The notes beneath the pieces were generated by a model that saw only the letters and a list, made by a program, of their open reading frames with translations, did not search any database and was not told where the DNA came from. From the NCBI GenBank assembly GCA_019155205.2, contig JAHNZQ020000308.1, forward strand, positions 2,928,886 through 2,992,885: a DNA stretch of 64,000 nucleotides, in the 5' to 3' direction. Source of the stretch: Gracilaria vermiculophylla (Eukaryota > Rhodophyta > Florideophyceae > Gracilariales > Gracilariaceae). Positions 9,076 to 63,113 of this stretch are shown here, in pieces. Position 1 is the first letter of the stretch; every line of letters begins with the position of its first letter. Both the position numbers and the translations under genes were made by a program.

Positions 9076-9087
9076 TACCCTCTTTCC
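9076..9087 (-). promoter_or_regulatory. Polypurine tract of element A
   Basis: On the element strand GGAAAGAGGGTA abuts the 3' LTR. The same position in B (39260-39271), C (51052-51065) and D (63114-63125) reads GGAAAGGCAGTA, GGAAAGGCGGTA and GGAAAGGGGGTA. This position and purine richness define the plus-strand primer and confirm that gag-pol, not the antisense ORF, sets the element direction. Confidence 0.75.
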
Positions 9088-12373: not shown

Positions 12374-12376
12374 CTT

Positions 12377-16318: not shown

Positions 16319-16319
16319 C

Positions 16320-20560: not shown

Positions 20561-20585
20561 GATGTCGACCAATGAAAGAGGTAAT

Positions 20586-20939
20586 TGTAGCGTGCTGCGC
20601 TAATTGAACAACATATGTATGAACAACATATATAATGGACATTTACGATATGTGACTCAAGTGCGACCCACGAAGCAGAATACATTCGTTCAACCACTAT
20701 GGAGTCTACCACGCCGTTCTATCCTCCAGGATAGCGCGCGACTTCTAGCGGCAGCCGCCGCCGGCGAGGCCATTGCAGAAGCCGGCATGGCAGCAGCCCG
20801 CCGCTACAGTAGTATAAATAGTCCGTCTGGTCTCTCGCCCCGATAAACTCCGGGGCATCGATGATCCTCTATCGATCAACCCTCTGGCCCTTCGGTCAAT
20901 CTCATCTTCTCTGAATCCCTCATTTCGAGGCACGTAACA
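20586..20939 (+). repeat. 3' LTR of element N with adjacent polypurine tract
   Basis: The LTR starts TGTAGCGTGCTGCG and ends CACGTAACA. A purine run GAAAGAGG just upstream (about 20574-20581) is in place for the polypurine tract. It carries the same GC-rich block and TATA box as the 5' copy. Confidence 0.88.
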
Positions 20940-20944
20940 CGAGA

Positions 20945-23089: not shown

Positions 23090-23642
23090 TGTAGTACCGT
23101 CAGTTCTCTTTTAGTGGTCATAGTGCCCAACGTCCGTTAGGAGCTTTTGTTGACTCCAAAGGCGAAAGTTTATAAAGGTGGTCTCCGCTAATCACTGTCA
23201 CGAGCTCGAGTAATTCTGAAGTAGGATCCGCGAACACCATGCGGAGAGGGAGGTTCACTAAGCAGACAATGCTCCTTTAGACGCTGCTACGAGGCGACCC
23301 GGGGATCGGTGGCTTAGAAATCTAAGGATGTTCGACGAGAGTCTTCAACCGGAAAAGTAGATGTAGACCCAAGGGTGCTTGATTTACTTCCACAGAGGTG
23401 GAGCTCGACCGGCAGATCAAGTATCACGCCAGTAGCCCGCCTCGGCAGGTCTCAGTACTGTAGTTGCTACCTGCGATAATTACCTAAAATAAATATAAAT
23501 TCTACCGTTCCTCAAGGGTACTGCAGCATAAGTGGGCCGCATTATGCACCACGTTGCTCAGTTAATAAAATACGAGTCCTTCTTAGAAATACCACGCCAT
23601 AAAGCCACTCTTTAATATCACCTTAGGATCCACTGTACTACA
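23090..23642 (-). repeat. 5' LTR of element A (553 bp)
   Basis: It has the same length as the 3' LTR and begins and ends with TGTAGTAC/GTACTACA. AAACC follows at 23643-23647. It is fused directly to mid-gag with no primer-binding site between. Confidence 0.93.
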
Positions 23643-25636: not shown

Positions 25637-26199
25637 TGTTGGATGAAGTGCCTGTGCTGTCACTGACAACTAAATGTTCCGGGGACCATGGGCTGCGTTG
25701 AATGTTAACTCTGTCTGGTACACGTGTGCAGGTGTGCTACTCGGCACGTTGTTCACTACCACATCGTTTCCAGTTGTACACATTGCAAACTCAGCTTAAT
25801 GTACACCGGATATGATTTAGAGTAATGTACCTCGTCATGGTAACTATACACACACATTGCTATATGGACACGAGTGGTGGCGGAATACAGGGAGTGTAAG
25901 GTGGTTGAGTGAATTTGTGCATTGTCATGGTCTCGTGAGTGTACGGAACTGTCATGCCCTGTTGTGCCTTGCTGTTATAAGCATTATTGAATTGTGGCTA
26001 ATACATTTATGTCATGTTACAATATGATTGGTAGTATTGAGTGTCTCGCCTTTGTAGTGTAATTTCTGATGCAACCTAGTCGGAGCGACTGAACCACTAT
26101 ATAAATCGTGGTCGAGGCACCTCCAAGTAAATCCAAGCCAGAGCTGGCGAACATTCTTAATATCCCTCCAACGTTCCCTTGCCCCTCTGACCTCCAATA
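25637..26199 (+). mobile_element. Solo LTR of family 3 (563 bp)
   Basis: Flanked by CGCCT (25632-25636 and 26200-26204). It starts TGTTGGATGAAGTG and ends CCTCCAATA, a TG...TA rather than TG...CA pair. A TATA box (TATATAAA, 26098-26105) lies about 95 bp before the end. It is nearly identical over the full 563 bp to 57624-58186, so both inserted recently. No internal region remains. Confidence 0.92.
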
Positions 26200-38697: not shown

Positions 38698-39259
38698 TGT
38701 TATACTGGCAGACCTGCTTTCAAGGGAGTAGAGCTCAACGTTCGTTAGAATTTTATGTTGACTGCAAAGGTGCGTGTTGCTAAAGGTGGTCTCCAGTATC
38801 CGCTGTCGCGAGCCGGGGGAATTCTTAAAAGGTATCCGCAAAAACTACGCGGTGGGGGAGGTCCACTAGGCGGACAATTCTCCTTCAGGCACTGCTGTGA
38901 TGCGACCTGGAGTTCGGCGGCTTAGAAACATGGTGATGATCGACGAGAGTCTCCAACCGCAAAAGCGGTAAACGTAGATGAATGCTCGGGAGTGCTTGTC
39001 TTTACTCCGACAGAGGTGGACCTAAACCGGCAGATTAAGTATCGAGCCGGGAGCCCGCCTCGGCAGGTCTCACTACTGCAATAAATACCTGCATAAAATA
39101 ACTAACATAAATATATATTCTCCCGTCTTTTAAGGATACTGTAGCGCACGAGGGCGACGTTGTGCACCAAGTGGCTCAGTCAATAAAATACGAGCTTTCT
39201 TAGGAATATCATGCCATAAACCCACACCACCATAGTTCTTAAGGAGCCCCTGTACTACA
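38698..39259 (-). repeat. 3' LTR of element B (562 bp)
   Basis: In plus orientation it starts TGTTATACTGGCAG (aligned to TGTGGTACTGTCAG) and ends TGTACTACA; the polypurine tract (39260-39271) follows. Homologous to all family-1 LTRs. Confidence 0.9.
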
Positions 39260-39771: not shown

Positions 39772-41760
39772 ATGAATGTACGCCCCGATAGGCTGCTCTA
39801 TAGCTTGTACGCTTCCGGTCGCTTGGTATCCCCGCGAGCTCCACGATGGCGGTTTGACGCGGCTCCCTCCCCTTTCGGGCGTATAACCGCGGGCCGCTGC
39901 CCAAGTGGTGTCAGATAATTCTACTTACGTGGTACAACTCGTTAAAATGCCATCCATCCAGTTTCGTACACTTTCAGCATGTCTTCTCCAGCTCCGGCAC
40001 CTACGTCACCATCCAATCCTGAAGTGTATCGCACCTCGATGGGTGCATCGTTCCGTCCAGCGGAGCAGTTCGACAATCGCGCCACGCGGGTCTTCGTCCC
40101 GTTCCATGAAAGGCGCGTAAGTCTCTCGTGCCCCGTGAAGGATTACATCTACTACTTTGGACCGTACCTCCAGGTGATGCGATTTCGCGCCGTATCGGAG
40201 ATTGCGTGAAATGACCAGTAACGAAACTGCGTGAACGCCTATCGCGCTTACTGGCTCCACAATCCGGTGCACGGTGACAACGCTGCAACTACGGTGAAAC
40301 ACTGCGGTACTCCATATGTGAGGTGCGCCGAGGAACGTGAGGTTCAGGCACGACTCCAGGTACTCCTTCACAAGGAGAGCTCCCACCAAAGCGCAGGACA
40401 ACCCAGAAGCATTGCCGATGGACGCTCTGCCCTCGCGGTGTTGCCCTTCGATCCCCAAAACGATCGCCTCTACTGACTGAACCGAAATTAATGGGGGACG
40501 CCATTTGAGGATGAAACCCGAGTGCGCACCGCCTTCGGATACTTCTATGGTTGGCATTACACGGAATTCAACGACATGCCTTCCGTCCAGCGTCCGAAGT
40601 ACTACGTCAAGGTGAATGACTCTGGAACGGACCACTGGGTATACCCGCACCTCTGCGTGGCGACACTTATCACCTCCGCGTACCACATCTCCGAGGTTCT
40701 AGATCTCCACGACTCCTTTGGGCGTTTCGTTATGTTGATCGCCTCGCCGGAGTTAGCGGTCGACACCCTGATGGCGTATCTACATGCAGTGGACGAGAGC
40801 GTAGCCTCTCATACTCCATTCCGAGACGGTCGCCGTTTCTGGGACTCTTCATATCAGTCGGCCGCTGGACGTTTGCTCCCCTTTTCGGCGCCCATTTTCC
40901 GGGTCCTGTGCTTCTTTGGCATCCAGAACATTATTAAGGGCACCGCATGGAGTGAGTCCGGAGCGGAGACGCTGCTGGATTGCAACCTCCAGGTGGCGTT
41001 AAGCGCCACGCCGGGCCTTTTTTGGTACAACTACGGCGAAGATAAGTTCCACCCCATCGTGAAGAGTCCCACTGGAGACGATGACACGCGAGCCTTTCCG
41101 GCTTTTCACCGTCTGGCGCCTTCCCGGGTTCCTCAGGTGCTACGGCTCCGATTACCCGACTACGAACGCTTGATGGAGAGTCTGGCGCATCATACACCCA
41201 GTCGGTTGCCGGCTCCGTCAGAAGATATGGGTGCGCCTCCTGAGATGCAAAGCCCTGCGGCCCGCGGCAATGCCGGGTTCTCCCACGGTGGTAGCCGCCT
41301 TGTCTCCTATGGAAGAGGACAAGGTTGCTCCCGTTCCGGTAGCTTCGGCCCCTGTGGTGCAACCCGGACTGCGGAGCTTCCCTGCGCCTTTTCCTCAGCC
41401 TCGCCTGCGGAGCGTCCCTGCGCCTGTTCTTCAGCCTCGCCTGCGGCGCGTTCCGGTTCCCGCACCGCCATCACCTACGATGTCACTGACTCCCTCCTTG
41501 GCTCTACCGACCTCCACGACGGAACCTGCCGAGCCCCGTCATGAAGCGTCTGTCCCACCTGGTCAGCCTTCCGTGGCTCCTTCCGTGGCGGTTGTTGCGC
41601 CGTCAACGGAGGTGGTCCCCTGGGGTGCACCGTCTGGCGGATTATCCTCTCGGGCTCTGGGTGCTGCCTTCCAGGAGTTGGTGCAGGCGTGCTTTGTGAC
41701 GAGCCGTCCTGCTCCGTCATCTCCTGTAAAGGCTCTGCGCGAGGCGCTTGCCTGGGTCTA
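39772..41760 (+). pseudogene. Antisense ORF of element B (fullest copy, about 660 codons)
   Basis: It lies opposite to gag-pol between the chromodomain and the 3' LTR. From ATG 39772 one frame runs through PRAPRWRFDAAPS, MSSPAPAPTSPSNPEVY (39979), RATRVFVPFHERRVSLSCPV, DYIYYFGPYLQVMRFRA, and a 340-codon open block from 40522 (FGYFYGWHYTEFNDM, PHLCVATLITSAYH, LAVDTLMAYLHAVDE, RRFWDSSYQSAAGRLLPF, RVLCFFGIQNIIK, LQVALSATPGLFWY). One frameshift near 41240-41290 leads into a Pro-rich tail with a threefold 36-bp repeat (LRSVPAPVLQPR type), VVAPSTEVV, AAFQELVQACF and a C-terminal Ala/Glu/Lys helix; the stop at 41759-41761 is not shared by copy A, so the protein may once have run some 50-60 codons further. 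About six stops and one shift in about 660 codons. No family is recognised. The core looks globular and the tail disordered then helical. Confidence 0.75.
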
Positions 41761-42205
41761 AGAACTCCAAAAGGCCCGGGCGGACGGAGCCTCGATGGTG
41801 GCCATCAAAGAAAGGCTGTCAAAGGTCTTCAAAAGCCAAGCGCGCACAGCGAAAATTCGCCTCGAAGTGGGGTGTACGAGGAGACTCGTTGACCTGTAGG
41901 TAAAAGATCCCCGGGCGAAGGGAGTAAGCTTTCGCTGGCTGCGGAATAAAAGATCCTTCAGTTGAAGCGGGAGATCCGTTAACGGTAGTTGCAATACGAA
42001 TGGGCCGTGCCGGCGCACTCAGCGAGACGAAGTGCCGCCGTGGGGGGGTGCTAAAAGCGAGCAACGGCATCCTGAAGGCGAAACAGAGAACTGCAGGTGG
42101 GGGGAAAACAGCGGAGATGAAAAGCAGCTCTGGTTAGGGGCCCCGTCCCAATTTCGTAAACGGAAGCGCCTGTATGAGAAGGCGTTTCCGCACCAGATTG
42201 GCGGG

Positions 42206-43018: not shown

Positions 43019-43571
43019 AGTAGTACAGTGGGTCCTCAGGATATAGGGTGGTTTGGCTTTATGGTATAATATTCCTAAAGAGGGCTCGTATTTTAATAGC
43101 TGGGCCACGTGGTGCATAATCCCGTCCGCGTGCGCTACAGTATCCTTATAGGACGGTAGAATTATTATTTATTTTAGATAGTTTATGCAGGTAATTAGTA
43201 CAGTACCAAGACCTGCCAAGGTGGGCTCCCGGCTTGATACTTCATCTGCCGGTTGAGCTTCACCTCTGGGGAAGTAAAGACAAGCACCCTTGAGTCTTCA
43301 TCTAATTTTCCGGTTGGAGTTTCGCGTCGATCAACGCAGGTTTCTAAGCTGCCGATCCCCAGGTCCCATCATAGCAGCGCCTGTAGGAGCATTGTCCGCC
43401 CAGTGAACCTTCCCCTCCGCTTGGTGTTTGCGGATACCTTTTAAGAATTCCTCCGGCTCGCGACAGCGGATACCGGAGACCACCTTTAGGAACACGCGCC
43501 TTTTGTGTCAACAAAAACTCCTGACGGACGTTGTGCTCTACTACCTCGGAAGGAGGGCTGACATTACCACA
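43019..43571 (+). repeat. 5' LTR of element C
   Basis: It begins AGTAGTACAGTGG (TG decayed to AG) and ends CATTACCACA. A CACGTG-containing GGGCCACGTGGTGCA block about 95 bp in is common to all copies. Confidence 0.92.
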
Positions 43572-43573
43572 AC

Positions 43574-43587
43574 TGGTCTCCTGACTT
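43574..43587 (+). promoter_or_regulatory. Candidate tRNA primer-binding site of element C
   Basis: Two bases after the LTR the sequence reads TGGTCTCCTGACTT. Element B has TGGTGTCCGGACTT at the same place (57336-57323, minus). A TGG start two bases after a ...CA LTR end is the standard geometry for a primer site complementary to a tRNA 3' CCA end. I cannot name the tRNA. Confidence 0.6.
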
Positions 43588-43726
43588 AGAAGGTCCGCTT
43601 TCTAAAGTATTCGCAAAGGCCTCAGTAGAACAGTGTTTCTAGTTTGCAACGACAGGACCTCAACAGTGGAATTCTTCCTTTAGGTGATTCGGAAGTGGAA
43701 GCAAATCACCCCCGACCCACTCCTCT

Positions 43727-45181
43727 ATGGACCCCTCAGAACCCCCAATGGAAACCCTCCGACAGGACCCTCAAGCAACCGGCTCCGTTGGTGGGCGCCG
43801 CACGCGCAGTGCACCCCAGGAGATGGCCGTCAGATTGGAGGACCTTGAAAATCTCCTTCGGAATCCTAGCTCTTCTGTGGAGCGTTTCAGGATTTGCCTT
43901 AGGAGGATGCATGATCGGAGGCAAGCTGAATCCCCCGCAACACCTCTGGAGAACGCCGATGTGGAGGTTGAAGAACCGCACACGGCATTGCAGCCGCCAC
44001 CTCAGGAGCAGCAGGGACGGGAACACCGGGAGGCTAACTCCCTTTTGGAGTCCCTTGCCCCGCGCCTTTCGGATTGGCTCTCCCAGGAGCTGGTCGAAAG
44101 AATACCTGCAGGTGTTGAAGCCCACTTCGGAGCGCGCCACCATGTCCTTGTGGAGGAAATCGCGACGGAGAGTGCTCACCGTGCTGAAGATGCTTTGCTG
44201 GATTCCGATCCCTTCCTTGAGGTGATCTCAGATGTCATCCGTGCGGAGGTTTGCTCCCAAACCACGCATCCACTCCCCGCAGCGGCGTTTCAAAGTTATT
44301 CTTCCGTACAGGAGAGGTTCCCTCTATCAACACTTAAGGTGATCCCGGGAAGAGAAGTACAGGATACTGCCGTAAATAAACGGGACCACCGGAGGAATCT
44401 TGCTATGCACCGTCTGCATCTGACGCCCCGCGGAGGAGGACAGGATACCGGTCGCGACGAAGTCCATCTAAGGAGAGAAGGAAAAGATCCTTCTCGGGTG
44501 GATCGAGATGACGAGGGTATCGTCAGCAATTCAGACCACCTTAAGGAAAAACTACGAAAGAAACGGAGGGAGAAAAAAAGAAAGCGAGAGACCAATTCGG
44601 AGAGAAGCTCATGCTCCGAATCCGTGAACAGCTCCAGCTCGGAGGACAGTGTACCTCCCAAGGAGAAGAACAGAAGGGTCAGGGAGGTCTTCCAGCTTAA
44701 CGACCTCTTCGCCAAATTGGTGGATTATGACACCTACAGGTTGAATGATCGCTCCACACTCTACGACGCGTCAATCACTAAACGATTCACGAAGATGCAG
44801 CGCCGTATGGATATTCAAATGAAGAAGCACTCCTTCTCAGGCGAAGACCCCATATTGGTGTTGAAGTTTCTTATGCGCTTCCGTTCAGCGTGTAACACCA
44901 ATAGTGTCCATGAAGGTGCCGCCGTATGGTGTTTTCAGTTCTACCTCACAGGCCTAGCGCACTCGCTAGGCCAGACACGCCTCACAGGGGAGAGCACCAT
45001 TGTGGATGATTCTGGAACGGAGATCTTGACGACGTACCCGGAGGTAGTCAATTTCCTCCTTAAGAGGTACGACACGGATGAGGTGATAGCCGATGCCGAT
45101 GCTGAAATCACCTCCTACAGGCAGAACACCGGAATGACCGAGACGGAGTTCTCACAGAAGCTGTGGACGAAAGCCCTTTGA
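43727..45181 (+). CDS. Gag polyprotein of element C (484-codon open frame)
   Basis: The ATG at 43727 (MDPSEPPMETLRQDPQ) is conserved in element B (57183, MDPSEPPLET). Residues 1-150 are helical and charged (VEVEEPHTALQPPPQEQQG, LVERIPAGVEAHFG). Residues about 190-300 form a strongly basic/acidic linker (KKRREKKRKRE, SESVNSSSSEDS). Residues about 320-484 are the capsid-like domain (YDTYRLNDRSTLYDAS, MQRRMDIQMKKHSF, VLKFLMRFRSACNT, FQFYLTGLAHSLGQTR). The frame stops at a TGA after LWTKAL; the rest of gag follows in another frame. Gag packages element RNA in cytoplasmic particles (family knowledge). Confidence 0.85.
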   Translation: MDPSEPPMETLRQDPQATGSVGGRRTRSAPQEMAVRLEDLENLLRNPSSSVERFRICLRRMHDRRQAESPATPLENADVEVEEPHTALQPPPQEQQGREHREANSLLESLAPRLSDWLSQELVERIPAGVEAHFGARHHVLVEEIATESAHRAEDALLDSDPFLEVISDVIRAEVCSQTTHPLPAAAFQSYSSVQERFPLSTLKVIPGREVQDTAVNKRDHRRNLAMHRLHLTPRGGGQDTGRDEVHLRREGKDPSRVDRDDEGIVSNSDHLKEKLRKKRREKKRKRETNSERSSCSESVNSSSSEDSVPPKEKNRRVREVFQLNDLFAKLVDYDTYRLNDRSTLYDASITKRFTKMQRRMDIQMKKHSFSGEDPILVLKFLMRFRSACNTNSVHEGAAVWCFQFYLTGLAHSLGQTRLTGESTIVDDSGTEILTTYPEVVNFLLKRYDTDEVIADADAEITSYRQNTGMTETEFSQKLWTKAL

Positions 45182-46080
45182 TGCGGGAACGTGTACTCCG
45201 AACGGCAGTTGTAGTCATTATTTGTCGAGGGACTCCTTCCCTCGATACGCAAGAGGGTGCGTAACCACCTGAAAACGCACTCAAAGACCACCTCCACGGA
45301 GCTAGCGCGTTTCGCGGAAACCTATGGAGATAACCACCGTGCCGCTCGTCGCAGCCATGCTCCACTTTCGGACAAACCGGCGGCCTCAAGGACCCGTCGG
45401 GCATCCGCCCTGACATTGGACTCCAGCACCTCGGAGGAGGTTGAAAAGGTCATGCTCGTAGGAGAGCAAGAGGACCTTGCCCTCACATACGCCTCCTCTC
45501 AGGAAGCACCTTCTAGAACGAGGTCACCCTCGTCTCCCACTTCGTACGCCTCGGCAGGATCCTACAGGAGCATCCGATTTGCGAACCCTCGAGGCTACTC
45601 ACCGCCTTACAGGATTTGCTTTTCACGAGAGCCCGTACACTGCACGACTCTCATTCCGGTAATGAGGGCCGCCATCCTGCAGAAAAGAGAGAAAATCTTC
45701 CAGGACTTGAAAGACACACTAACGGAGAGCGGAAGATATCGAACCGCGTATCGCGACATCCGCCCCCCTTAAGAAAACTACGGTTACTGTGCTCCACCGG
45801 GAATGCAGCCTATACCACTGTCACTGGCACCTACAGCGCAGGTACCGGTATCCCAGCCGGTTGCACCTCAAGTGAACACGTCGCATCGCGATGAACAACC
45901 GCAGAAGCCGTCCCCGCCTGGAACCCAGCCCCTCTCTAACCAGGAAAACCCTCAGAGCCACGCGTAGAGGCTCCGCGTGGCTCTCCAACATCCAGCCTCA
46001 ACTCCACGGAGGTCGCCTGTAGGAAAGGGGGAGAGGCCGTCTGCTCCGTCGATGCAGAATCGTCGGGGCCCCCAATCCCG
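45182..46080 (+). pseudogene. Gag C-terminus of element C (frame-shifted)
   Basis: The frame holding 45257-45772 continues the capsid end (RVRNHLKTHSKTTSTELARF), a Ser/Arg-rich spacer (EAPSRTRSPSSPTS), and a Cys/His segment (PPYRICFSREPVHCTTL in C; PPCRICLSREPVHCTTL in B) that may be a degenerate zinc knuckle with C-X2-C-X6-H-C spacing. A Pro/Gln-rich stretch leads to the protease. Equivalent sequence in B is at 55687-54932. Confidence 0.7.
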
Positions 46081-49000
46081 TTGGACCCATTCGACACCTT
46101 TGATGATTCTGTTTGCACGCTCCGCCGTGAGAATTACAAGATATTCGCCTCTATAGTATGTTCCTCGCTCGCTTTCACTACGGTGCGCGCTATCCTCGAT
46201 ACCGGATCTGGCCCCAACCTGGTGCACACCGACGTGCTCCCGCGGTCTGCTCTTGGTTCCTTGAGGACTGGCAAGCTCCCGACGGTACGCGATGCGTCGC
46301 GACGAGCATTGACCATCCTCGGTGAAATCCCCTTGTACCTCCGATTGGGCTCCTTACAGGTGAAATTGGGGTTCCTCGTGGCGACCACCTTGGCCGCACA
46401 ATGCATATTGGGCACTTCCTTTGTGGATTGATATGTACGTGCAATCTACCCACGCCTGCGGAAGGGGATATTTCATGACGCTGCCCCTGTAGGTATTGTG
46501 TCCGCATCTCCAGGACCGGACGCGAACGCGCGTCAAGTGGGTACCCTTTCGAAGGAGACGCAGTCGAATAAGCTCCGCGTGGTGAAGAGCAATGAAATAC
46601 CCGCGAGGAGTCATGCTGAAGTCTGGGTGCAGACTTCTGCATCTGGCCTTTCATTCCTACAGGGGAGTCCACACCTGACGACAAAGCAGCACTTCATGAC
46701 GACGAAGGGTGTTATGGAAGTAATATTGAACTTCCCCTTTAGGGTTGTGCTCGCTAACCTTAAGGAGTCGCTGTTACGGCTCCAGAAAGGAATCGTCGTC
46801 GGGCTGGCACTGCCCACCCCTTCAGGACTGGCTCATCTTCCACAAGCGGAAGACCTTGCGGACCGCGATGCAATCGCCACCGTGGAGACAGAAGCGACTT
46901 CTTCGGCTCCAGAGGAAGAGAGTCCTGCCACCTGGCAGGAGAAGCTCCAAATTGGCGATGATGTCGAAGAGTATCGCCACAGGATAGTGGAGATGCCATC
47001 CGCCTTCGAGGACATGTGGTCTGGTCGCCTGGGTCAGATCAGATTGGCCAAGCACCGGATCCAGCTCACACCGGATGCGAAACCGGTACATCAACTCCCA
47101 TGGAGAGCCGAACCCCATGCGCGCGATTTTAAGCGCGATGAGGTTCACCGGATGCTGGAGAAGGGCGTTATAGAGACTTCCAATTCCGAATGGGTCTCCC
47201 TGGTGGTGTTTGTCAATAAGAAAAATGGCTCCATAAGGTTCTGTATTGACCACAGGCGCCTCAACGAGGTGAGGGTACGCGATCCGTACCTGATACCCCG
47301 TATGGATAAATATATCGACTCCTTAGGCGATGCGTCCGTTTTATCCACGCTGGATGCAAACAGCGGCTACTGGCAGATTGAGATGGAGGACTCCGATAAG
47401 GATAAGACAACGTTCACCTCGCACTGTGGGATCTTCAGATTCCTAAGGATACCATTTGGATTGAAGAATTCACCCGCTACGTTCCAACGAGCGGTGTACA
47501 TTATCCTGTCAAAGGTGAAGTGGCAGTACGCCTTGGTGTATATCGATGACGTCAACATATACTCCCGCAGCGTGGAGGAGCACTTCATTCATGTGAAGCA
47601 CGGGTTCCAACTCCAAAAGGATGCTGGAGTCACCTTGAAGCTGGAGAAATGTTTCTTTTTCAAGTCGTCGGTGGACTACCTGGGGCACGTTGTGTTTCCG
47701 GGCCGCGTACAGGTTTCCAGGAAAAATCAGGACGTCATCAAGGAAGCTCACCCTCCCACAAACCAGATGGAGCTCCGCTCCTTCCTTGGGTTGTGTAACG
47801 TCTTCCGGAGGTTTGTACCAAATTTCTCCCGTGTAGCGGCGCCGTTAAATCGCCTTTTAGAGAAGGACAAGCCGACGCAATTGGTTATCTTGACGGATGA
47901 GGAGTTTGAAGCCTTTGACACCCTGAAGAGGAGACTAATAGAACCACCAATCTTGGTACTTCCGAAGCTGCACGGCCGAATGATGCTGGACACTGACGCC
48001 TGCAAATACCAGGTCCGATGTGCCCTCCTACAGGAGCAACCGGAAAATGGACTTCAATCCATCGGATACTGGAGTCGCAGCCTCACACCTACGGAACGGA
48101 ATTACTCCACTTCGGAGCGCGAATGTCTCGCCATCGTGTGGGCGGTTTTGCTTATACGCCCATACTTGGAAGGCGCGCGCTTCATCTTGAGGACGGACAA
48201 CGCACCACTGAAGTGGATACTGTCCTTGACGGATGCTTCCGGTCGCCCGAAAAGGTAGAGGTTACGCCTCATGGAGTTCGAGTTTGACATCTTCCACCGT
48301 CCTGGCATAAAACACGAGACAGGGGATGCGCTCTCGCGAATCTCCACTGATGGGGAAGATAAAACACCTTTGGAGGACAACATCCCGTGTCTGGTCATCC
48401 ACGACACCGACGGGAAAGAAGGATCCGATGGAGAATGTTTGGAATGCTGGGAACCTGGATGAAAGTATAGTGGGCTCCCTGAGGTGATTGCTCTTGTTGC
48501 GAAGGAGAAAGAAGTTCTCCCCATCACTGTTGCGAAGTTCCTGAAGAAACAGAGTACGGATGCGTACTACAAGGAGTGCCTCGCCACTGTGGGGAGTTTG
48601 AAATCGTTTTTCGACGTCAGCCGAGACGGCGTGCTTGTACGCCGCGCCCCCATGGATGGATCTCTCCAAAAGGTGGTGCCGACGAAGTTACGGGTGAGAG
48701 TGTTGTACCTCTCGCAGTATCCGCGCCTCGCCGGGCACCCCGGTGGATCTCGGATGTATCGCACCATGCGGAGGGAGTTCTATTGGCTGAACATGGCCAA
48801 CGACGCCTTCCAAACCTTGGGCGATTGCTATTCCTGCGCCGCCGCTAAGGGGAGTATACGGAAATACCGAACGCTGCTCACGCTGTTCCCACCTTCAAGA
48901 CCGTTGGAGTTTGTGGCCATGGACATCTTAGGCCCTCTCCCCAAGACGGAGCGAGGACATCGATTTATCCTTGTGATCACGGATCGCTTTTCTAAGATCA

Positions 49001-49578
49001 CGCGTGCCATCCCCCTTCGGAGCACTACTGCAGCAGTGATTGCCGACTCCTTTTTGGAGCATTGGGTCTATCCCTACGGGATACCGTTGTACTTCCTTAC
49101 AGACACTGGCCCCCAGTTCGCGGCGAAACTCTTCAGCGCCGTCTCGGAAATGCTGGGGATGGAGCAGTTGTTTACAACTGCGTATTACCCCCAGACGGAC
49201 GGCCAGGCAGAAAGGTTCGACAAAACCATCGCCTCGATGCTGATGCACTACGTTGCGGACCACCAGAAGGATTGGGACGCATATGTGGGACCCCTCACGT
49301 ATGCATACAACCTACAGGTGCACCGCTTTACGGGGATCGCTTCTTTTAATCTGGTGCTCTCGCGCATCCCGCCAAGTGCCGTCATCGCGGCACGCGCCAC
49401 GGCGCACCCGGCGGATGGGCCGCAGACACCAACAATGGTGCAAGCCAAACTCTCCATCCTTAGGCGGTAAAAGAACGCACTCTTCCTCGCGAAGGAGAGA
49501 CTCAATGCCTCGCAGAGGAGATACAAACAGGACTTCGACCGAAAGGTTATGGAAGGCCCTCTCCTGAAGGAAGGCGAC
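46081..49578 (+). pseudogene. Protease, reverse transcriptase, RNase H and integrase of element C (one frame, four stops)
   Basis: A single frame, interrupted by TGA (46429), TAG (48256), TGA (48460) and TAA (49468). Retropepsin: VRAILDTGSGPNL and CILGTSFVD. RT: FVNKKNGSIRFCIDHRRLN, STLDANSGYWQIEM, RIPFGLKNSPATFQRA and an intact VYIDDVNIYS box. Connection and RNase H: SFLGLCNVFRRFVPNFSR, MMLDTDACKYQ, STSERECLAIVW, ILRTDNAPLKW, then FHRPGIKHETGDALSR. Integrase: LAGHPGGSRMYRTMRREF, CYSC, VAMDILGPLP, FLTDTGPQF and QTDGQAERF (DDE intact). Two of the stops are C-to-T or G-to-A changes (CGA to TGA, TGG to TAG). The frame enters the gap at LLKEGD. Confidence 0.92.
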
Positions 49579-49678
49579 NNNNNNNNNNNNNNNNNNNNNN
49601 NNNNNNNNNNNNNNNNNNNNNNNNNNNNNNNNNNNNNNNNNNNNNNNNNNNNNNNNNNNNNNNNNNNNNNNNNNNNNN
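49579..49678. other. Assembly gap (100 N) in element C
   Basis: By comparison with element B, sequence from LKEGD (42698) to the Pro-rich antisense tail (about 41665) should occupy about 1.03 kb here, including the chromodomain. The gap is therefore undersized. Confidence 0.99.
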
Positions 49679-50553
49679 CTCCAGAGCCGCAGAGAAGAAT
49701 CCTCCCGACGGTGTACCCAATGCGGCCACCTCTGTTGACGGCGCAACAACCGCCACGGAAGCAGCTGCGGACGGCGGACCAGCTGGGACAGGGGCTTCCT
49801 GACGGGATTCCGCGGGTTCTGCAGTGGAGGTTGGCAATGCCATGGACGGAGTCGGTGACATCGGAGATGACGGCGGTGCGGGAACTGGAACGCTCCGCAG
49901 GCGAGGCTGAGGAATAGGCGCAGGGACCCTTCACAGTCGGAATTGCACCACTGGGGCCGAAGGTACCGGGAAAGGAGCAATCTCGTCCTTTTCCATAAGA
50001 GACACGGCGGCTACCACTGCCATAGGAGACACGGCGGCTATTACTGCGGGATTACTCGGTACCGCGGCCGGCCGCGGAGTTATCACCTCAGGAGGTGCGC
50101 CCATATCCTGAGACAAAGCCGGTAACCGACGAGGCGTATCATGCCCCAGGCCCTCCATCAAGGGGTCTTAGTCGGGCACTCGGAGCCGTAATACTTGAGG
50201 AACCCGGGAAGGCGCCAGAGGGAGAAAGGCAGGGTATGCTCGCCGGACATCGTCTCCATTAGGACTCCTCACAATGGGGTTGAACTTGTCTTCTCGTACA
50301 CCTCAAGATTCGAAGGAAACGTAGGCGCCGGAGTCGGAGAAGACATGCCGAAGGTGTAGGACGCTGAGTGGATGGTAACCGAACGCGTGGTAGCACCTGA
50401 GGAGAGAGATTTGACACCACTTTGGGAACGACCCGCGGTTATATGCACCACCGAGGAGGGAGCCGCGTCAGGCCGCCCTCGTGGAATTCGAGGAAAAGCC
50501 GAGCGACCGGAACCAGGCGAAGTATGGAGCACTATAGCAAGGCGCGCGTTCAT
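49679..50553 (-). pseudogene. Antisense ORF of element C (internally deleted)
   Basis: Starts MNARLAIVLHTSPGSGR at 50553 and runs through IPRGRPDAAPSS, SLSSGATTRSVTIHS and GMSSPTPAPTFPSNLEVY, then jumps with a frame change to EDKFNPIVRSPNGDD, which in B lies about 1 kb further on. The downstream parts SRVPQVLRLRVPD, LMEGLGHDTPRRLPA, DMGAPPEV and the Pro-rich tail (SPTPSMALPTSTAEPAE, VVAPSTEVA) are well kept. The 3' end is lost in the gap. Confidence 0.72.
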
Positions 50554-51051
50554 ATCCAGTAGAGGACGACGTGGATGCAGAGGAAAGGATTATGAGACTA
50601 GTACCTTCATGGAGAATGAAAGAACGGACGCGATGAAGTGGGTGTTTCCTGAAGAGGAATCCTCGAAGGAATCGGAGTAGCAAGCGCCTCATGGGAGTCA
50701 GTGTCCACTCTGGACGGACGCACGCTCCGGCCACGGAAATTGCGCGACTGCACCGCGCACGTCGAATTCGAGTGCGCGGGAGCTCTCGCCACCAACTGTG
50801 GCGGTTGCACAGACCGGATATGCCAAGAAGGAGGAGACGCAGCCGGGGTAAGAAGGAGCAGGGCCAACAAACGCCGCCAGGGATGAAATGTGAGCACGCG
50901 GCAATACGCCGCTCAGGAGTATGGAGAAAGGGAGGAACGCCTGAACGAGAGAACGTGCACACCGCTGGAGGCCGCACTTGCCTCAGCACCGATAGGAGCC
51001 ACCCCGGGGATCATGAAATCGGAAGATGCACCTCGAGGACGTTTTGCAATT

Positions 51052-51065
51052 AAGGAAAGGCGGTA
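51052..51065 (+). promoter_or_regulatory. Polypurine tract of element C
   Basis: AAGGAAAGGCGGTA directly precedes the 3' LTR; conserved in A, B and D. Confidence 0.78.
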
Positions 51066-51617
51066 TGTAGTACAGTGGCTCCTAAGGAAGTAGGGTGGTT
51101 TGGCGTTATGGCATAATATTCCTAAGGAGGGCTCGTATTTTATTAGCTGGGCCACGTGGTGCATTATCCCGCCCGGGTGCGCTACAGTATGCTTAGGGGG
51201 CGGTAGAATTATTATTATTTTAGATACTTTATGCGGGTAATTAGTACAGTAGCGAGACCTGCCGAGGTGGGCTCCCGGCTTGATACTTAATCTGTTGGTT
51301 GAGCTCCACCTCTGGGGAAGTAAAGACAAGCACCCTTGAGTCTTCATCTAGTTTTCCGGTTGGCGTTTTTCGTCGATCAACGCAGGTTTCTAAGCCGCCA
51401 ATCCCCAGTTCGCACCATAGCAGCGCCTGTAGGAGCATTGTCCGCCCAGTGAACCTTCCCCTCCGCTTGGTGTTTGCGGATACCTTTTAAGAATTCCCCC
51501 GACTCGCGACAGCGGATTCCGGAGACCACGTTTAGGAACACGCGCCTTTGGAGGCAACAAAAACTCCTAACGGACGTTGTGCTCTACTACCTCGAGAGGA
51601 GGGCTGACAGTACCACA
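51066..51617 (+). repeat. 3' LTR of element C (552 bp)
   Basis: Starts TGTAGTACAGTGGCTCC and ends TGACAGTACCACA. Element B integrase sequence follows immediately. Confidence 0.93.
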
Positions 51618-52640
51618 GGGTTCACTACGTAGTGCTTCAGCCTTGAGGCGATTGCCTTAGTGATCCTTTCCGCTTGTCCGTTGGTCCGGCGGTGATAAAT
51701 AGTTGTACACAGCTGGTTCATCCCCAGCATTCCGCAGACGGCGCTGAAGAGCTTCGCCGCGAGCTGGAGGCCATTGTCCGTGAGGACATACAATGGTATC
51801 CCATAGAGGTAAACCCAATGTTCCAGAACGGCGTCGGTAATTACTGCTGCAGTGGTGCTCTGGAGGGGGATGGCACGCGTGATCTTAGAAAAACGATTCG
51901 TAATCACGAGGATAAATCGGTGCCCTCGGTCCGTCTTGGGGAGAGGACCCAAGATATCCATGGCCACAAACTCCAACGATCCTGAAAGTGGGACCAACGT
52001 GAGCGGCGTCCGGTATTTCCGTATATTTCCCGTTGCGGCGGCCCAGGAATATCAATCTACCACCATTTGGAAGGCGGCATTAGCCATTTTCAGCCAATAG
52101 AACTCCTTCCGCACGGTACGATACATCTGCGATCCACCGGGGTGCCAGGCGAGGCGAGGATAGTGCGAGAGATACAGGACCCTCGCCCGTAGCTTCGTCG
52201 GGGCCACCTTTTGGAGAGCTCCATCCAGAGGGGCGCGGCGTACAAGTACGCCGTCTCGCTCAACGTCAAATGACGATGGCAAACTCCTTACCATGGCGAG
52301 GCACTCCTCGCGGTACGCATCCGTACTAGGGTTTTTCAGGATCTCCGCTATATTGATGCGGAGAACTTTTTTCTCCTTCTCAACAAGAGCCATTACCTCA
52401 GGAAGCCCACTATACTTTCCTCCAATTTCCCAGCATTCCAAACATTCTCCATCGGATCAATCTTTCTCGTTGGTGTCTTGGATGACCAGACACGGGATGT
52501 TGTCCTCCAAAGGTGTTTTGTCTTCTCCTTCAGTGGTGATTCGCGAGAGCGCGTCCATTGCCTGGTGTTTTATGCCAGGACGATGGAAGATATCAAACTG
52601 GAACTCCAGGAGGCATAGCCTTCACCTTTCCAGGCAACCG
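51618..52640 (-). pseudogene. Integrase (N-terminal and core) of element B
   Basis: In minus direction: HYPRLAWHPGGSQMYRTVRKEF, FVAMDILGPLPKTDRGHRF, VLTDNGLQLAAKLF and TNGQAERITK, so all three catalytic acids are present. The second zinc cysteine pair is spoiled (stop, then YSWA in place of CYSC). It ends at HYVVN, where element C is inserted. Confidence 0.85.
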
Positions 52641-54790
52641 GAAGCATCCGTCAAAGACAGTATCCACTTCAGTGGTGTACGGCCCGTCCTTAAGGTGAAA
52701 CGCCCACCTTCCAGATATGAGCGTACAAGCAAACCCGCCCACACGATGGCAAGACACTCGTGCTCCGAGGTAGAGTAGTTCCGTTCCGTAGGTGTGAGGC
52801 TGCAACTTCAGTAACTAATGGGTTGAAGTCCATCTTCAGACTGCTCGTGTAGGAGTGCACATCCGACCTTTTATTCACAGTCGTCAGTGCTTAGCAACAT
52901 TCAGCCGTGCTGCTTCAGAAGAACCTAGATTGGTGGCACTATTCGTCTCTTCTTTAGGGTTTCAAAGGCTTTACACTCCTCGTCTGTCAAGATAGCCAAT
53001 TGCGTCGGCTTGTCTTTCTCCAGGAGGTGGTTTAACGTCGCTGCAATACGGGATAAATTCGGGACAAACCACCAGAAGACATTACACAGCCCCAGAAAGC
53101 AGCTAGACTCCGTCTGGTTTGAGGAAGGGTGAGCTTCCTTGATGGCGTCCCGAGTTTTGTGGAAACCTGTAAACAGGCTTGGAGCACAACGTGCCCCAGG
53201 TTCTCCACCGAGGACTTCAAAAAGAGAAATTTCTCCAGCTTCAAGGTGCGTCCAGCATCCTTTAGGATTTGGAGCACGTGCTCCACATAAATGAAGTGCT
53301 CCTCCCCGGTCCGGGAGTATATGATGACTTCATCAATATACACTAAGGCGTACTGCCACTTCACCTTTGAAAGGATGATGTCCACCGCTCGTGGGAACGA
53401 ATCGGGTGCATTCTTCAATCCAAATGGCATACTCAGGAATCTGACGATCCCACAGTGCGAGGTGAACGTTATGTTATCCTTATCGGAGTCGTCCATCTCA
53501 ATCTGCCAGTAGCCGCTGCTGGCATCCAGCGTGGAGAAAACGAACGCATCACCTAAGGAGCCGATACATTCATCCATACGGGGTATTGGGTACGAATCGC
53601 GTACCATTACCTCGTTGAGGCGTCTTTAGTCAATATTGAACCTCAAAGAGCCATTTTTCTTTTTCAAAAACACCACCGGGGAATCCCAATCGGAATTGGA
53701 ATGCTTGATAATGCCCTTCCACAGTACTCAGTGCACCTCATCACGTTCGAAATCGCGCGCATGGGGTCTGGCCCTCCTTGGGAGTTGATGAACCAGTTTC
53801 GCATCAGGCGTGAGCTGGATCCTGTGTTTAGCCAGACTGACCTGACTCAGGCGACCAGACCACATTTCCTTAGAGGCGGATAGCATCTCCAGTATCCTAT
53901 GGCGATTCCCTTCGAAATCTTTGCCAACTTGGAGCTCCTTTTGTCAGATGGCAGGGTTCTCTTCCTCTGGAGCCATTGCAGTTGCTTCAGTCTTCATAGT
54001 GGCGATTGCATCGCAGTCCACGAGGTCTTCCAAACGAGGAAGATGAGCCCGTCTTGCAGGGGCGGGTAGTGCAAAGCCAACAACAGTTCTTTTCTGGAGC
54101 CGTAACGGCGACTCCTACAGGTTGGCGAACACAACCCTGAAGGGAATGTTCGGTATTATTTTCATAACGTCGTTCATGACCATGTAGTGCTGTTTCGTCG
54201 TCGGTTGTGGACTCCACTGTAGGCATCAAAGGCTAGATGCAGAGGTCTGCACCCCAACTTCGGCCTGACTCCTCGCGGTTCTTTCGATGCTCTTCACCAC
54301 CCGGAGCTTGTTGGACTGCGTCTTCTTTGAAAGATTATCCACGTGACGTGTGTTGGCGTCCAATTCTGAAGATGCATACACGATACCTACAGGGGCGGCG
54401 TCGTGAAACATCATCTTACGCAGGCGTGAGTAGATTGCACGTACATACCGGTCGACAAAGGAAGTGCCCAATATGCATTGTGCAGCCAAGCTGGTCGCCA
54501 CGAGAAACAACAATTTCATCTGTGAGGAGCCGAACCGGAGGTACAGGTGTATTGCTACGAGGATGTTCAAAGCCCAATGCGACGCATCGCGCACCGTAGG
54601 GAGCTTGCAAGTCCTCAAGGATCCCGGAGCAGACCACTGGAGCACGTCGGCGTGCACCAGATTAGGTCCAGCTCTGGTATCAAGGATAGCGTGCACCGTG
54701 GTGGAGGCGAGCGGGGAATATCTTATAGAAGCAAGCAATTTGTGATTCTAACGGCAGAGCATGCAAACAGAACCCTCAAAGGTGTGTAAT
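52641..54790 (-). pseudogene. Protease, reverse transcriptase and RNase H of element B
   Basis: Protease at 54738-54226 has the active site DTRAG instead of DTGSG. The RT frame 53607-53032 keeps DSYPIPRMDECIGSLGDA, LDASSGYWQIEMDDSDKD and FGLKNAPDSFPRAVD, with the catalytic box VYIDEVIIYS (YIDD changed to YIDE). RNase H blocks (SLTPTERNYSTSEHE, LKWILSLTDASG) follow with stops. Protease and RT are therefore expected inactive. Confidence 0.86.
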
Positions 54791-54931
54791 GGGTGCAGCG
54801 GGATAGGGGGCCCGCCGATTCTGCGTTGCCGAAGAAGACGGCTTCTCTCCCTTTCCTAAAGGCGACCTCCGTGGAGCTGAGGCTCGATGGTAGGGAGTCA
54901 CGTGGAGCCTCTATGCGTGGATCTGAGGGTT

Positions 54932-57183
54932 TTACAGGTTGGAAAGGGGCTGAGGTCCGGCCGGGGACGGCTTCTGCCGTTGTGCATCGAGATGCAACGT
55001 GTTCCCGTGAGTTGCAACAGGCTTGGATATCGGCACCTGCGTTGCAGGTGCAAGTGAGAGTGGAACAAGCTGCACTCCTAGTGGAGCACGGTAACCGTAG
55101 TTTCCTTGAGGGGAGCGGATGTCGCGATACGCAGGTCGATATCTTGCGCTCTCCGTTGGTGTGTCCTTCAGGTCCTGCAAGTTCTTTTCGCGTTCATGCA
55201 AGATGGCGGCCCTCATTACTGGGGTGAGAGTCGTACAGTGTACTGGCTCTCGAGACAAGCAAATCCTGCAAGGCGGTGGGTAGCCTCGCGGGTTCGCAAA
55301 TCGGACACTCCTGAAATATCCTACCGAGGACTCCGAAGTGGGAGACGAGGGTGTCCTCGTCCTAGGCGGTGCTCTTTGAGATGAAGCGTATGTGAGGGCA
55401 AGGGCCTCTTGCTCTCCCACGACCCTGATCTCGTCGACCTTTTCCGCGGTGCTGGAGTCCTATGTCAGAGCGGATGCCCGACGGGTCCTTGAGGCCGCCG
55501 GTTTGTCCGAAAGTGGAGCATGACTGCGACGAGTGGCACGGTGGATATCCCCATAGGATTCCGCGAAACGCGCTTGCTCCGTATAGGTGGACTTTGGGTG
55601 CATTGTCAAGTGATTATGCACTTTCGCGTGCATCGAGGAAAGGAGTCCCTCGACAAACAATGACTTCAACCGCCGTCTGGAGTACAAGTTCCCACATCAT
55701 AGGACCTTCTTTCACAGCTCCTGTGAGAACTCCGTCTCGGTCGTTAACGTGTTCTGCCCATGGGAGGTGACTTCAGCATCAGCATCGGCTATCAACTCGT
55801 CCCTGGCGTACCTTCTTAGGAGGAAATTGACTACCTCCGGGTACGTCGTCAAGATCTCCGTTCTAAGATCATCCACAATGGTGCTCTCCCCCGTGAAGTG
55901 CAGCTGTACCAGCGAGTGCGCTTGTCTTGTGAGGTAGATCTGAAAACAGCATACGGCGGAATCTCCATGGACACCATTGGTATTACACGCTGAACGGAAT
56001 CGTATGAGAAAATTCAACAACGATATGAGCTCTTCGCCTAAGAAGGGATGCATCTTCATATGAATATCCATGCAACGCTGGATCTTCGTGAGTCGTTTAG
56101 CGACTGACGTGTCGTAATGAGTGGAGAGATCATTCAACCTGTAGGTGCCATAATCCACCATTTTGGCGATGAGGTCGTTAACTGGGGCGACCTTGTTGAC
56201 CATTCTGCTTTCATTCTTGGGGGTTATAATGTCCTCCGAGCTGGAACGGTTTACGGATTCAGAGTCTGAGCTTCTCTCCTAGTACATGTCTCGCTTTTTG
56301 CATTTCTCCCTCCGTTTATTTCGGCGTCGTTCAGTTATGTTGTATAGGTGCCTGACTATATCCCGCTATCGTGATTCACCCGGAGAGTTTATTGTCTCTC
56401 TCTCCTTGGGTGAAACACTTTGCGACCGGTACCCTGTCCTCCTCCGTGAGGCAACAAGTCCAAACGATGCACAGCAGTATTCTTGAGGTGCTCTCATTTC
56501 CTTACGGCAGAAACCTATCCTCTTCTGGCGTAGGGGGTGGCAGCATCCTGTACTTCCCTGCCCGGGGTCACCTTAAGTGTTGATAGAGGGAAACTCTCCT
56601 GTACGGAAGAATAACTTGGAAACGCCGCTGCGGGAGCAGCTGCGTGGTTTTGGGACCAAACCTCCCCACGGATAGCATCTGAGGCCACGTCAAGGAAGAG
56701 GTCGGAATCCAGCAAAGCATTCACAGCACGGTGAGCGCTCTCCGTCGCGATTTCCTCCACAAAGACGTGGCGGCGCGCTCCGGAGTGGGTTTCAACATCT
56801 GCAGATATTCTTTCGACCAGCTCTCGTAAGAGCCAATCCGTAGGGCGCGCGGCCAGCGACTCCAGGAGGGAGTTAGCCTCCCGGTGTTGCCGTCCCTGCA
56901 GCTCCTGAGGTGGCGGCTGCGGTGCCGTGTGCGGTTCTTCAATCTCCACATCGGCGTTCTCCAGAGGTGTCGCGGGGAATTCTGAATGCCTTTGATCGTG
57001 CATTCTCCAAAGGCGAATCCTGAAACGTTCTACGGAGAAGCCAGGATTCTGAAGGAAACTTTCAGGGTCCTGCAGTCTGGCGGCCTTCTCCTGCGGAGCA
57101 CTGCGCGTGCTGCGCCCAACGACGAAGTCGGTTGCTTGAGGATCCTGAAGGGAGGTTTCCAATGGGGGTTCTGAGGGGTCCAT
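54932..57183 (-). pseudogene. Gag of element B
   Basis: The start MDPSEPPLETSLQDP at 57183 opens a 222-codon frame, which then breaks. The capsid-like block is at 56203-55712 (DYGTYRLNDLSTHYDTS, NGVHGDSAVCCFQIYL) and the C-terminal Ser/Arg and Cys/His region at 55687-54932. Same order as element C Gag. Confidence 0.85.
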
Positions 57184-57322
57184 AGAGGAGTAGGTCGGGG
57201 GTGATTTGCTTCCACTTCCGAATCACCTTAAGGAAAAATTCCACTGTTGAGATCCTGTCGTTGCAAACTAGAAGCACTGTTCTACTGAGGCCTTTGCGAA
57301 TACTTCAGAAAGCGGACCTTTT

Positions 57323-57336
57323 AAGTCCGGACACCA
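57323..57336 (-). promoter_or_regulatory. Candidate tRNA primer-binding site of element B
   Basis: Minus strand TGGTGTCCGGACTT, two bases inside the 5' LTR end. It differs from element C by two substitutions. Confidence 0.6.
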
Positions 57337-57338
57337 GT

Positions 57339-58458
57339 TGTGGTAATGTCAGCCCTCCTTCCGAGGTAGTAGAGCACAACGTCCGTTAGGAGTTTTTGTT
57401 GACTCTAAAGGTGCGTGTTCCTAAAGGTGGTCTCCAGTATCTACTGTCGCGAGACGGGGGAATTCTGAAAGGGGATCCGAAGACACCAAGCGGAGTGGGA
57501 GTTTCACTGGGTCGAAAATGTTCCTTTAGGCCCTGCCATGATGCGACCTGGGGATCGGTGGCTTAGAAACCTGCGTTGATCGACAAGAGAATCTAACCGA
57601 AACAGTAGATGAAACCTCAAGGGTGTTGGATGAAGTGCCTGTGCTGTCACTGACAACTAAATGTTCCGGGGACCATGGGCTGCGTTGAATGTTGACTCTG
57701 TCTGTTACACGTGTGCAGGTGTGCTACTCGGCACGTTGTTCACTACCATATCGTTTCCAGGTGTACACATTGCAAACTCAGCTTAATGTACACCGGATAT
57801 GGTTTAGTGTAATGTGCCTCGTCATGGTAACTATACACACACATTGCTGTATGGACACGAGTGGTGGCGGAATACAGAGAGTGTAAGGTGGTTGAGTGAA
57901 TTTGTGCATTGTCATGGTCTCGTGAGTGTACGGAAGTGTCATGCCTTGTTGTGCCTTGCTGTTGTAAGCATTATTGAATTGTGGCTAGTACATTTATGTC
58001 ATGTCACAATATGATTGGTAGTATTGAGTGTCTTGCCTTTGTAGTGTAATTTCTGATGCAACCTATTCGGTGCGACTGAACCACTATATAAGTCGTGGTC
58101 GAGGCACCTCCAAGTAAATCCAAGCCAGAGCTGGCGATCATTCTTAATATCCCTCCAACCTTCCCTTGCCCTTCTGACCACCAATAAAGGGTGCTTGTCT
58201 TTACTTCCCCAGAGGTAGAACTCAACCGGCAGATTAAGTATCAAGCAGGGAGCCCGCCTCGGCAGGTCTCACTACTGTAGTAAATACCTGCATAAACTAA
58301 CTAAAATAAATATAAATGCTGCCGCCCCTTAAGGATACTGTAGCGCACGCGGGCGGAGTTATGCACCACGTGGTTTAGTCAATAAAATACGAGCTTTCTT
58401 AGGAATATCACGCCATAAAGCCACACCACCATATTTCCTTAGGAGCCACCGTACTAAA
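57339..58458 (-). repeat. 5' LTR of element B, interrupted by a family-3 solo LTR
   Basis: In plus orientation it starts TGTGGTAATGTCAG and ends CACCGTACTAAA (CA decayed to AA). The interruption at 57624-58186 lies in the block CTCAAGGGTGCTTGTC, which is continuous in the other copies. Confidence 0.9.
57624..58186 (+). mobile_element. Solo LTR of family 3 (563 bp), in element B LTR
   Basis: Perfect AAGGG duplication (57619-57623 and 58187-58191). It runs TGTTGGATGAAG...CACCAATA with a TATA box TATATAAG at 58085-58092. Nearly identical to 25637-26199. Confidence 0.93.
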
Positions 58459-60111: not shown

Positions 60112-60738
60112 TATAATCCAGAGAGAAACATTCATACGTTTTGTATATTCGTGCCTCGTTTTTTCACAGACTTTACAGTGCGCACTTTTCGATTGCTTTG
60201 CTTACAGCTTTTATTGTAAATTACCACTACAGAAGCAAAACAGTTGTCTTATTCCTGCCGAGCTGTTACGAGAAGAGTTTTAGACACCGCATTAGAGGTC
60301 TTACGAGAACTAATATTTCGTGAGAAACGCGGAAACATTACGAACACGTACAACAAGGTGCTTACGTGTTAGAAAATTCAAAAGAGAACGGTAGAGTAAT
60401 TTCGTAAACCTCACCAATCTCACGAAATCAAGAGCACCCCCCTCAAAACCAGAACACAGAGCGCCCCAGTTGCTGTGTTGAGTGCGCGCGGTGAACAGGC
60501 TTTCTTGCGCCCCACGTAAGGTTTTATCTCCGCGTGCGTGAGCCCAAGGCCGAACAAGCTTGCTTGTGTTGCGCCGAGCTCACAATGCGTCTGCGCGCGA
60601 AAGGCACTGCTATACCACCGTAAGCGTGCGTCGGTTATCAACTTTGCTTCACTTTTTGCCCTTGCACTGTGAACGGTACTTTGCCACCGATGGTTCCTCA
60701 ACCAGACCTCATCCATCCGCAACGAATCAAACTCAAGC
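60112..60738. other. No recognisable gene; upstream region of the Myb-like ORF
   Basis: AT-rich at first, then GC-richer from 60420. No domain, TATA box or terminal repeat could be assigned with confidence. Confidence 0.45.
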
Positions 60739-62559: not shown

Positions 62560-63113
62560 TGTTGTACTGTCAGCCCTCCTGTCGAGGTAGTAAAGCACAA
62601 CGTCCGTTAGGAGTTTTTGGTGACTCCAAAGGCGCGTATTCCTAAAGGTGGTCTCCGGTATCCGCTGTCGCGAGCCGGGGGAATTCTGAAAGGTATCCGC
62701 AAACACCAAGCGGAGGGGAAGGTTCACTGGGCGGACAATGCTTCTACAGGCGCTGCTATGATGCGACCTGGGGATCGGCGGCTTAGAAACTTGCGTGAAT
62801 AGACAAGAGACTCCAACCGGAAAATGTAGAAGAAGACTCAAGGGTGCTTGTCTTTACTTCCCCAGAGGTGGAGCTCAACCGGCATCTTAAATATCTAGCC
62901 TGGAGCCCGCCTCGGCAGGTCGCACTACTGTGCCAATTACCTGCATAAAATATCTAAAATAAATAATAAATTCTACCGTACTTTAAGGATACTGTAGCGC
63001 ACGCAGGCAAGATTATGCACCACGTGGCCCAGGTAGTAAATTACGAACCCTCCTAAGGAATATTATACCTTAAGGCCAAACCACCATATTTCCGTAGGAG
63101 TCACTGTACTACA
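62560..63113 (-). repeat. 3' LTR of element D (family 1, 554 bp)
   Basis: In plus orientation it starts TGTTGTACTGTCAGCC and ends CACTGTACTACA, followed by the polypurine tract TACCCCCTTTCC (plus strand, 63114-63125). The rest of the element lies beyond the window, so the other target copy (ACACG expected) cannot be checked. Confidence 0.9.

Follow-up and report, generated by a model that had tools for sequence, protein, structure and literature searches.

The Ty3/gypsy chromovirus family of the red alga Gracilaria vermiculophylla carries an antisense gene of about 627 codons, convergent with gag-pol and located between the pol stop and the 3' LTR, and comparison of its genomic copies makes us highly confident that this frame was a working protein-coding gene. 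The central claim of an initial annotation of this DNA, that a conserved antisense protein gene resides within a chromovirus, was corroborated by the constraint on variants shared among copies, by the depletion of stop codons, and by homologous proteins found elsewhere. As a whole, we favor with modest confidence the reading of a coding gene that was under selection while the elements were active and then decayed, and whose product would be a trans-acting nuclear accessory protein.

The analyzed window, a 64-kb stretch of genomic DNA (64,000 nucleotides), contains four elements, A, B, C, and D, as established by mapping on the genomic copy L005 and by self-comparison; D is cut by the window end. 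The mapping agrees with the initial annotation in that each of four related copies carries, next to the 3' LTR, a frame on the strand opposite to gag-pol. The family is a Ty3/gypsy chromovirus, having direct LTRs flanking gag-pol, the corresponding order of pol domains, and a chromodomain. In the frames of copy L007, Pfam searches identified a protease (below its cut-off), reverse transcriptase (RT), RNase H, and then integrase, with the chromodomain PF00385 at residues 446-492 of 502, at the integrase C-terminus (26.3 bits compared to a cut-off of 25.1). The chromodomain was placed via L007; copy C of the window is without this region (alignment gap at L005 3838-4843). Element C is nested in B, which breaks at 43011 and resumes at 51619, and occupies 43020-51617 with RT and integrase on the + strand and the antisense frame on the - strand. 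The LTR pairs are 80.7% identical in A, 78.1% in B (N spacer counted in), and 91.8% in C by self-comparison, and A and B are therefore both older than C. Element A extends from 8522 to 23642 and includes another stretch (14790-20940). The features of the four copies are as follows.

8522-9075, + strand: copy A 3' LTR, 80.7% identical to its own 5' LTR at 23089-23642
9824-10670, + strand: copy A antisense remnant, ~1 kb of the core lost at ~9976-9987, with breakpoints unlike those of C
10943-14790, - strand: copy A pol, interrupted at 14790 and resuming at 20940 towards the 5' LTR at 23089
38703-39259, + strand: copy B 3' LTR (relative to gag-pol on the - strand)
39979-41899, + strand: copy B antisense gene, decayed, from the MSSP Met to the counterpart of the L005 stop
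40048-41188, + strand: copy B conserved core of the antisense protein, mapping to L005 2260-3400
42173-43011, - strand: copy B pol 3' part, stop side, broken at 43011 by element C
43020-43572, + strand: element C 5' LTR, 91.8% identical to its own 3' LTR
46432-49470, + strand: element C pol, with RT-RNase H at 46432-48258 and integrase at 48463-49470 (Pfam)
49679-50346, - strand: copy C antisense remnant, lacking core and end through deletion, with its pieces out of frame
51066-51617, + strand: element C 3' LTR
51619-57337, - strand: copy B rest of the interior (gag-pol); 51619-57625 aligns with element C 43285-49261
57338-58456, - strand: copy B 5' LTR, split by a 563-bp insertion at 57624-58186
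63815-64000, + strand: copy D antisense gene start, cut by the window end; its 3' LTR is at 62560-63113

Several other features were observed in the window. The 14790-20940 stretch inside element A comprises ~6.1 kb of other sequence, probably another insertion. The 563-bp segment that splits the B 5' LTR at 57624-58186 has a 96% identical counterpart at 25637-26199, and perhaps represents a short young mobile element. A host gene with an M28 peptidase match, long hydrophobic stretches, and two overlapping frames is located at 4586-7400 on the - strand, and a charged-rich open frame at 60673-61770 on the + strand had no Pfam matches at E <= 0.001. The gene content of the genome fits a red alga: light-harvesting families gave 10 matches and phycobilisome linker families 11, four and one of these, respectively, on C14, the contig that contains the window (C14:2928886-2992885). 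A fungal host was rejected; Zn_clus, hydrophobin, and Peroxidase_ext gave 0 matches, as did the oomycete elicitin, a weak negative given that none of 14 control genomes matched these four families either.

To obtain a population of copies, the genome (44.8 Mb, 27 contigs) was searched with the 350-aa open piece of copy B, which yielded at least 117 matching places (the best 116 of 917 candidates were scored) with 53-74% identity besides the piece itself. Among the matches listed for this piece, frames of 707-708 codons (stop to stop) occur repeatedly, and two very long frames (3963 and 1800 codons) were listed at loci with thousands of N (L003 and L011). We fetched 39 copies and analyzed them together with the four window copies, 43 in all, in two sets defined by identity to L005: a main set (n=30, 0.81-0.90) and an older set (n=13, 0.73-0.78). 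An open Met-to-stop frame free of frame-changing indels was found in 2 of the 43 (L005 and L006), the test being applied to copies with more than 1700 aligned bases. In the antisense region, the main copies are ~10-19% divergent from L005, most with few indels, and C>T, G>A, and G>T/C>A are numerous among their private changes. Retrieval of the copies relied on similarity to this protein, and conserved ones could thus be favored; a large retrieval bias is disfavored because the private variants are spread evenly over codon positions.

Variants private to one copy and variants shared among copies gave strikingly different patterns in the main set (L005 2188-4071). Private variants were distributed 412/416/431 over the three codon positions, matching the expectation for unconstrained DNA, whereas variants common to at least three copies were distributed 83/63/234 (chi-square P 9e-21, with the relatedness of copies ignored). 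The shared/private ratio of nonsynonymous to synonymous changes (N/S ratio) was 0.24 at >=3 copies (codon bootstrap 95% 0.18-0.30), 0.12 at >=5 copies, and a weaker 0.45 at >=2 copies; for the core, the respective values were 0.16, 0.06, and 0.34. At >=3 copies, the older set gave 0.29 and all 43 copies 0.25, and removal of CpG-context sites left the ratio at 0.21. A selection test across copies, of the kind proposed in the initial annotation, gave strong constraint specific to this frame in shared variants and none visible in private ones. As a control, pol of the main set on the L007 anchor yielded 0.254 for integrase-chromodomain and 0.226 for protease-RT-RNase H, so that constraint on the antisense gene is approximately at the level of pol (0.24 vs. 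0.23-0.25); integrase of the older set gave 0.357 on the same anchor. The pol control on the L005 anchor (0.35 main, 0.57 older) was set aside, since a frame change in L005 diluted the signal. No codon-position pattern was detected in the LTR or in the L005 1471-1947 stretch. Differences fixed between two subfamilies were distributed 15/2/54 by codon position (5/0/38 in the core).

Stop codons were depleted in this frame relative to the other five, a comparison that the initial annotation had called for: the main set contained 3.3 stops per 1000 codons in the antisense frame (65 of 19,598) vs. 18.6-30.2 in the others (L005 1948-4071), and the older set 9.7 vs. 23.0-35.4. The integrase frame had 6.0 stops per 1000 codons. 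The opposite-strand frame that shares third positions showed a ratio of 0.32 as a by-product and contained 591 stops in 19,576 codons (30.2 per 1000). An open frame resulting from composition or from constraint on the opposite strand was rejected, because only this frame is strongly stop-depleted and the gene is located past the pol stop. The stops differ among copies, as had been stated and as the 43-copy alignment on L005 confirmed, and they were gained after insertion, given that constraint is present in shared variants and none is visible in private ones. The combination of shared constraint with unconstrained private variants indicates purifying selection while the elements moved and neutral decay after insertion.

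The gene is separated by ~720 bp from the 3' LTR and by ~250 bp from the pol stop. The spacing from integrase to C-terminal matches has a median of 249 bp (n=56 pairs), with 54 of the 56 falling within 199-310 bp. From the MSSP Met (L005 2191), the protein has 627 residues in both L005 and L006, 708 stop to stop, and not the ancestral frame of at least 660 codons that had been proposed. The MSSP-type Met is found at 39979 in B, 9824 in A, 50346 in C, and 63815 in D. In 150-bp steps, the third-position excess sets in between L005 2101 and 2250 and ends near 4050. Ahead of the MSSP Met, shared variants were distributed 13/10/14 by codon position (L005 1951-2100); over L005 1948-2190, the distribution was 23/17/28 and the N/S ratio 0.48. 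The signal upstream of the MSSP Met is weak or absent, and a short extension there is possible; the Met residues at 39772, 9617, 50553, and 63611, originally taken as starts, are not backed by a clear codon-position signal; the IPRWR.DAAPS motif, regarded as a protein block, sits in the leader upstream of the MSSP Met. The homologous proteins start ~24 residues before (P0001) and ~11 residues after (P0002) this Met. The encoded protein would begin with an N-terminus rich in Pro and Ser, followed by a conserved core (~370 residues), a relaxed linker rich in Pro, and finally a C-terminal segment. The proline-rich stretch around codons 501-600 is relaxed, and constraint is seen in the core and over the final ~100 residues; the C-terminal segment was drawn as helical only by a poor model (mean pLDDT 37).

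The B frame annotated at 39772-41760 follows the family to ~41259 but shifts near 41260, and the homologous stop is at 41899; most of the 117 matches to the 350-aa open piece stop near its residue 256. Read on the L005 anchor, the B gene region has 5 in-frame stops; compared with L005, it also has an excess of 37 bases from insertions. The common block structure reported for the four copies is revised in that A and C are without ~1 kb of the core, lost with different breakpoints. At least 152 matches to the C-terminal piece were found in the genome (the best 150 of 630 candidates were scored), and of these 150 places, 64 were listed with an adjacent core match and 86 without one. Among the integrase places (best 85 of 1720 candidates), a core was listed for 34, a C-terminus without a core for 31, and neither of the two for 20. 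These sequence matches suggest that core-less copies are common among the best candidates listed. If so, the core is not required in cis, which fits trans action and also dispensability. Outside the window, at C1 ~63483-78318, C-terminal and integrase matches occur three times at distances of about 6242-6243 bp, and this array would represent tandem repeats of a unit without a core among the matches listed.

Variation is unevenly distributed along the element. Shared variant sites amounted to 113-167 per kb in seven of nine 300-bp windows of L005 1501-4200 (70 and 97 in the other two), compared to 20-97 per kb in 20 windows of LTR, pol, and gag; the comparison included 16 copies, with coverage decreasing to ~10-12 towards gag, which lowers the shared counts there. 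Overall, shared-variant density in the leader and antisense gene was approximately 2-fold that of LTR, pol, or gag. The density of private variants was mildly uneven (31-46 per 1000 sites and copy). Distance patterns within the LTR-leader-gene block agree with one another (r 0.55-0.74, 14 copies) more closely than with pol; correlation of the block with the nearer pol piece was 0.41-0.62 and with the farther one 0.22-0.53, the latter being noisy with 44 shared sites. These patterns suggest that the variants of the 3' module are older or were exchanged.

A search with the core retrieved P0001 (674 aa, 39% identity over 95% of the core), and P0001 as a query retrieved P0002 (652 aa, 61%), P0004 (523 aa, 46%), P0005 (769 aa, 39%), and P0003. 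The foreign homologues are four (P0001, P0002, P0004, and P0005), of which three look intact and P0004 looks frameshifted. In P0003, the start of a bacterial DnaA is fused to the C-terminal half of the P0001 family, and from its sequence P0003 looks like an assembly artefact, a chimaera. The whole L005 protein as a homologue query gave no match, perhaps swamped by low-complexity words. No Pfam families were detected at E <= 1 for L005, P0001, P0002, P0004, or P0005, no NCBIfam families for P0001, P0002, P0005, or L005, and no PDB matches at E <= 1 with L005; one PDB match at E 2.5 with the profile was taken as chance. Viral contigs gave three pattern matches with no relative among them. The AlphaFold model from four sequences had a mean pLDDT of 37 and was unusable for fold. 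Being absent from Pfam and NCBIfam and having no convincing PDB sequence match, the protein family appears to be new. P0001 and P0002 share a basic RKRPR tail, which is missing at the end of the L005 protein.

We propose that the antisense gene was transcribed from a putative promoter of its own in the 3' LTR/leader region and that its product was a trans-acting accessory protein, probably nuclear, whose most likely targets there are the expression of the element itself or its integration complex. Trans action is favored because 86 of the 150 C-terminal places were listed without a core and 31 of the 85 integrase places with only a C-terminus, and core-deleted elements could then multiply beside full ones. 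A nuclear role is favored because of the RKRPR tails in P0001 and P0002 together with the nuclear or DNA-binding indications for plant analogues (PMC7264820 and PMC11963269).

In place of a regulator of its own cycle, the element might encode an anti-silencing factor that guards it against silencing by host chromatin or small RNAs, an unlikely alternative: the high shared-site density over L005 1501-4200, with only mild private unevenness, might arise under host conflict, but selection on the protein is purifying, not diversifying, and Pfam matches of any kind are lacking. We consider it improbable that the product is structural or env-like, or aids particle assembly or movement. The usual Kyte-Doolittle cut-off is 1.6, and the best 19-residue mean in the core reaches 1.9 in L005 and 1.7 in L006, but only 1.46 in P0001, 1.21 in P0002, and 1.58 in P0005; moreover, the gene is antisense, and thus its product is not made from genomic RNA by splicing. 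Sense genes between pol and the LTR are env-like in some elements, according to PMC7264820. Even less probable is a captured host gene carried as cargo, with which the lack of Pfam similarity to known element proteins would be consistent; however, no closer host-type match was found among the best 66 of 531 candidates for P0001 and the best 58 of 519 for P0005, and the scored genome matches to these two proteins (31-39% identical) are mostly at the same places as those of the B piece. It is barely credible that the antisense RNA is the functional product, with a frame left open by chance or composition, since, although antisense transcripts may regulate some elements (PMC7264820), amino-acid constraint is frame-specific and at the level of pol and the homologues are conserved as proteins; an RNA role beside the protein is possible.

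Beyond the favored reading of a trans-acting accessory protein, the leader and antisense gene might together constitute a self-recognition module, of which several old variants would persist and reassort against a more uniform pol and LTR, with the protein acting in trans on matching elements and core-deleted elements depending on it as satellites. We regard this as a long shot; if true, it would be the counterpart, among retrotransposons, of phage immunity and satellite systems.

The architecture belongs to a known class, that of the plant aORFs and Botrytis brtn, and the protein family is absent from the libraries searched. Zhao et al. (2011) is reportedly the source cited for brtn of Botrytis cinerea. 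PMC7264820 reviews the aORFs that plant elements have between pol and the 3' LTR; it names Boty of Botrytis as a case outside plants and describes the function of these genes as unknown. The plant aORF-3R of Grande (gene23), RIRE2, Retand, and PvRetro13 share with the present gene position, orientation, multi-copy presence, and unknown function, and are conserved like other element proteins (PMC7264820), as reflected here by the N/S ratio of 0.24 vs. 0.23-0.25 for pol. They differ by description in that the present host is a red alga, not a land plant, and the element bears a chromodomain, and the present protein has no Pfam match. Retand encodes antisense TRP28 proteins with predicted DNA binding, as given in PMC11963269; Retand, however, is of a non-chromovirus lineage, and the new protein has no Pfam match of any kind. 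The TRP28 domain (pfam04195, named as in PMC7264820) was accordingly not found in the five proteins tested, with no Pfam families at E <= 1, as far as the library searched includes this model. The brtn gene of Boty-like elements in Botrytis cinerea, likened here by description, is likewise an additional antisense gene of an LTR element outside plants (PMC7264820 and PMC8365987). The HTLV antisense gene, with its promoter in the 3' LTR, provides an analogy, again by description, for a regulator (PMC7264820 and PMC11963269). PMC3248453 shows no antisense gene, and the cases in Sola1 and EnSpm concern DNA transposons and not LTR elements. No antisense gene in an LTR element of a red alga was found in the literature searched, in which subscription papers were largely absent.

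The antisense genes of LTR elements are a puzzle; their position and orientation recur in plants and a fungus (PMC7264820 and PMC11963269). In the present case, the coding claim rests on a population of copies in which selection on active elements can be told apart from the decay that follows insertion. A defined family with foreign homologues makes tests of localization, expression, and partners direct.
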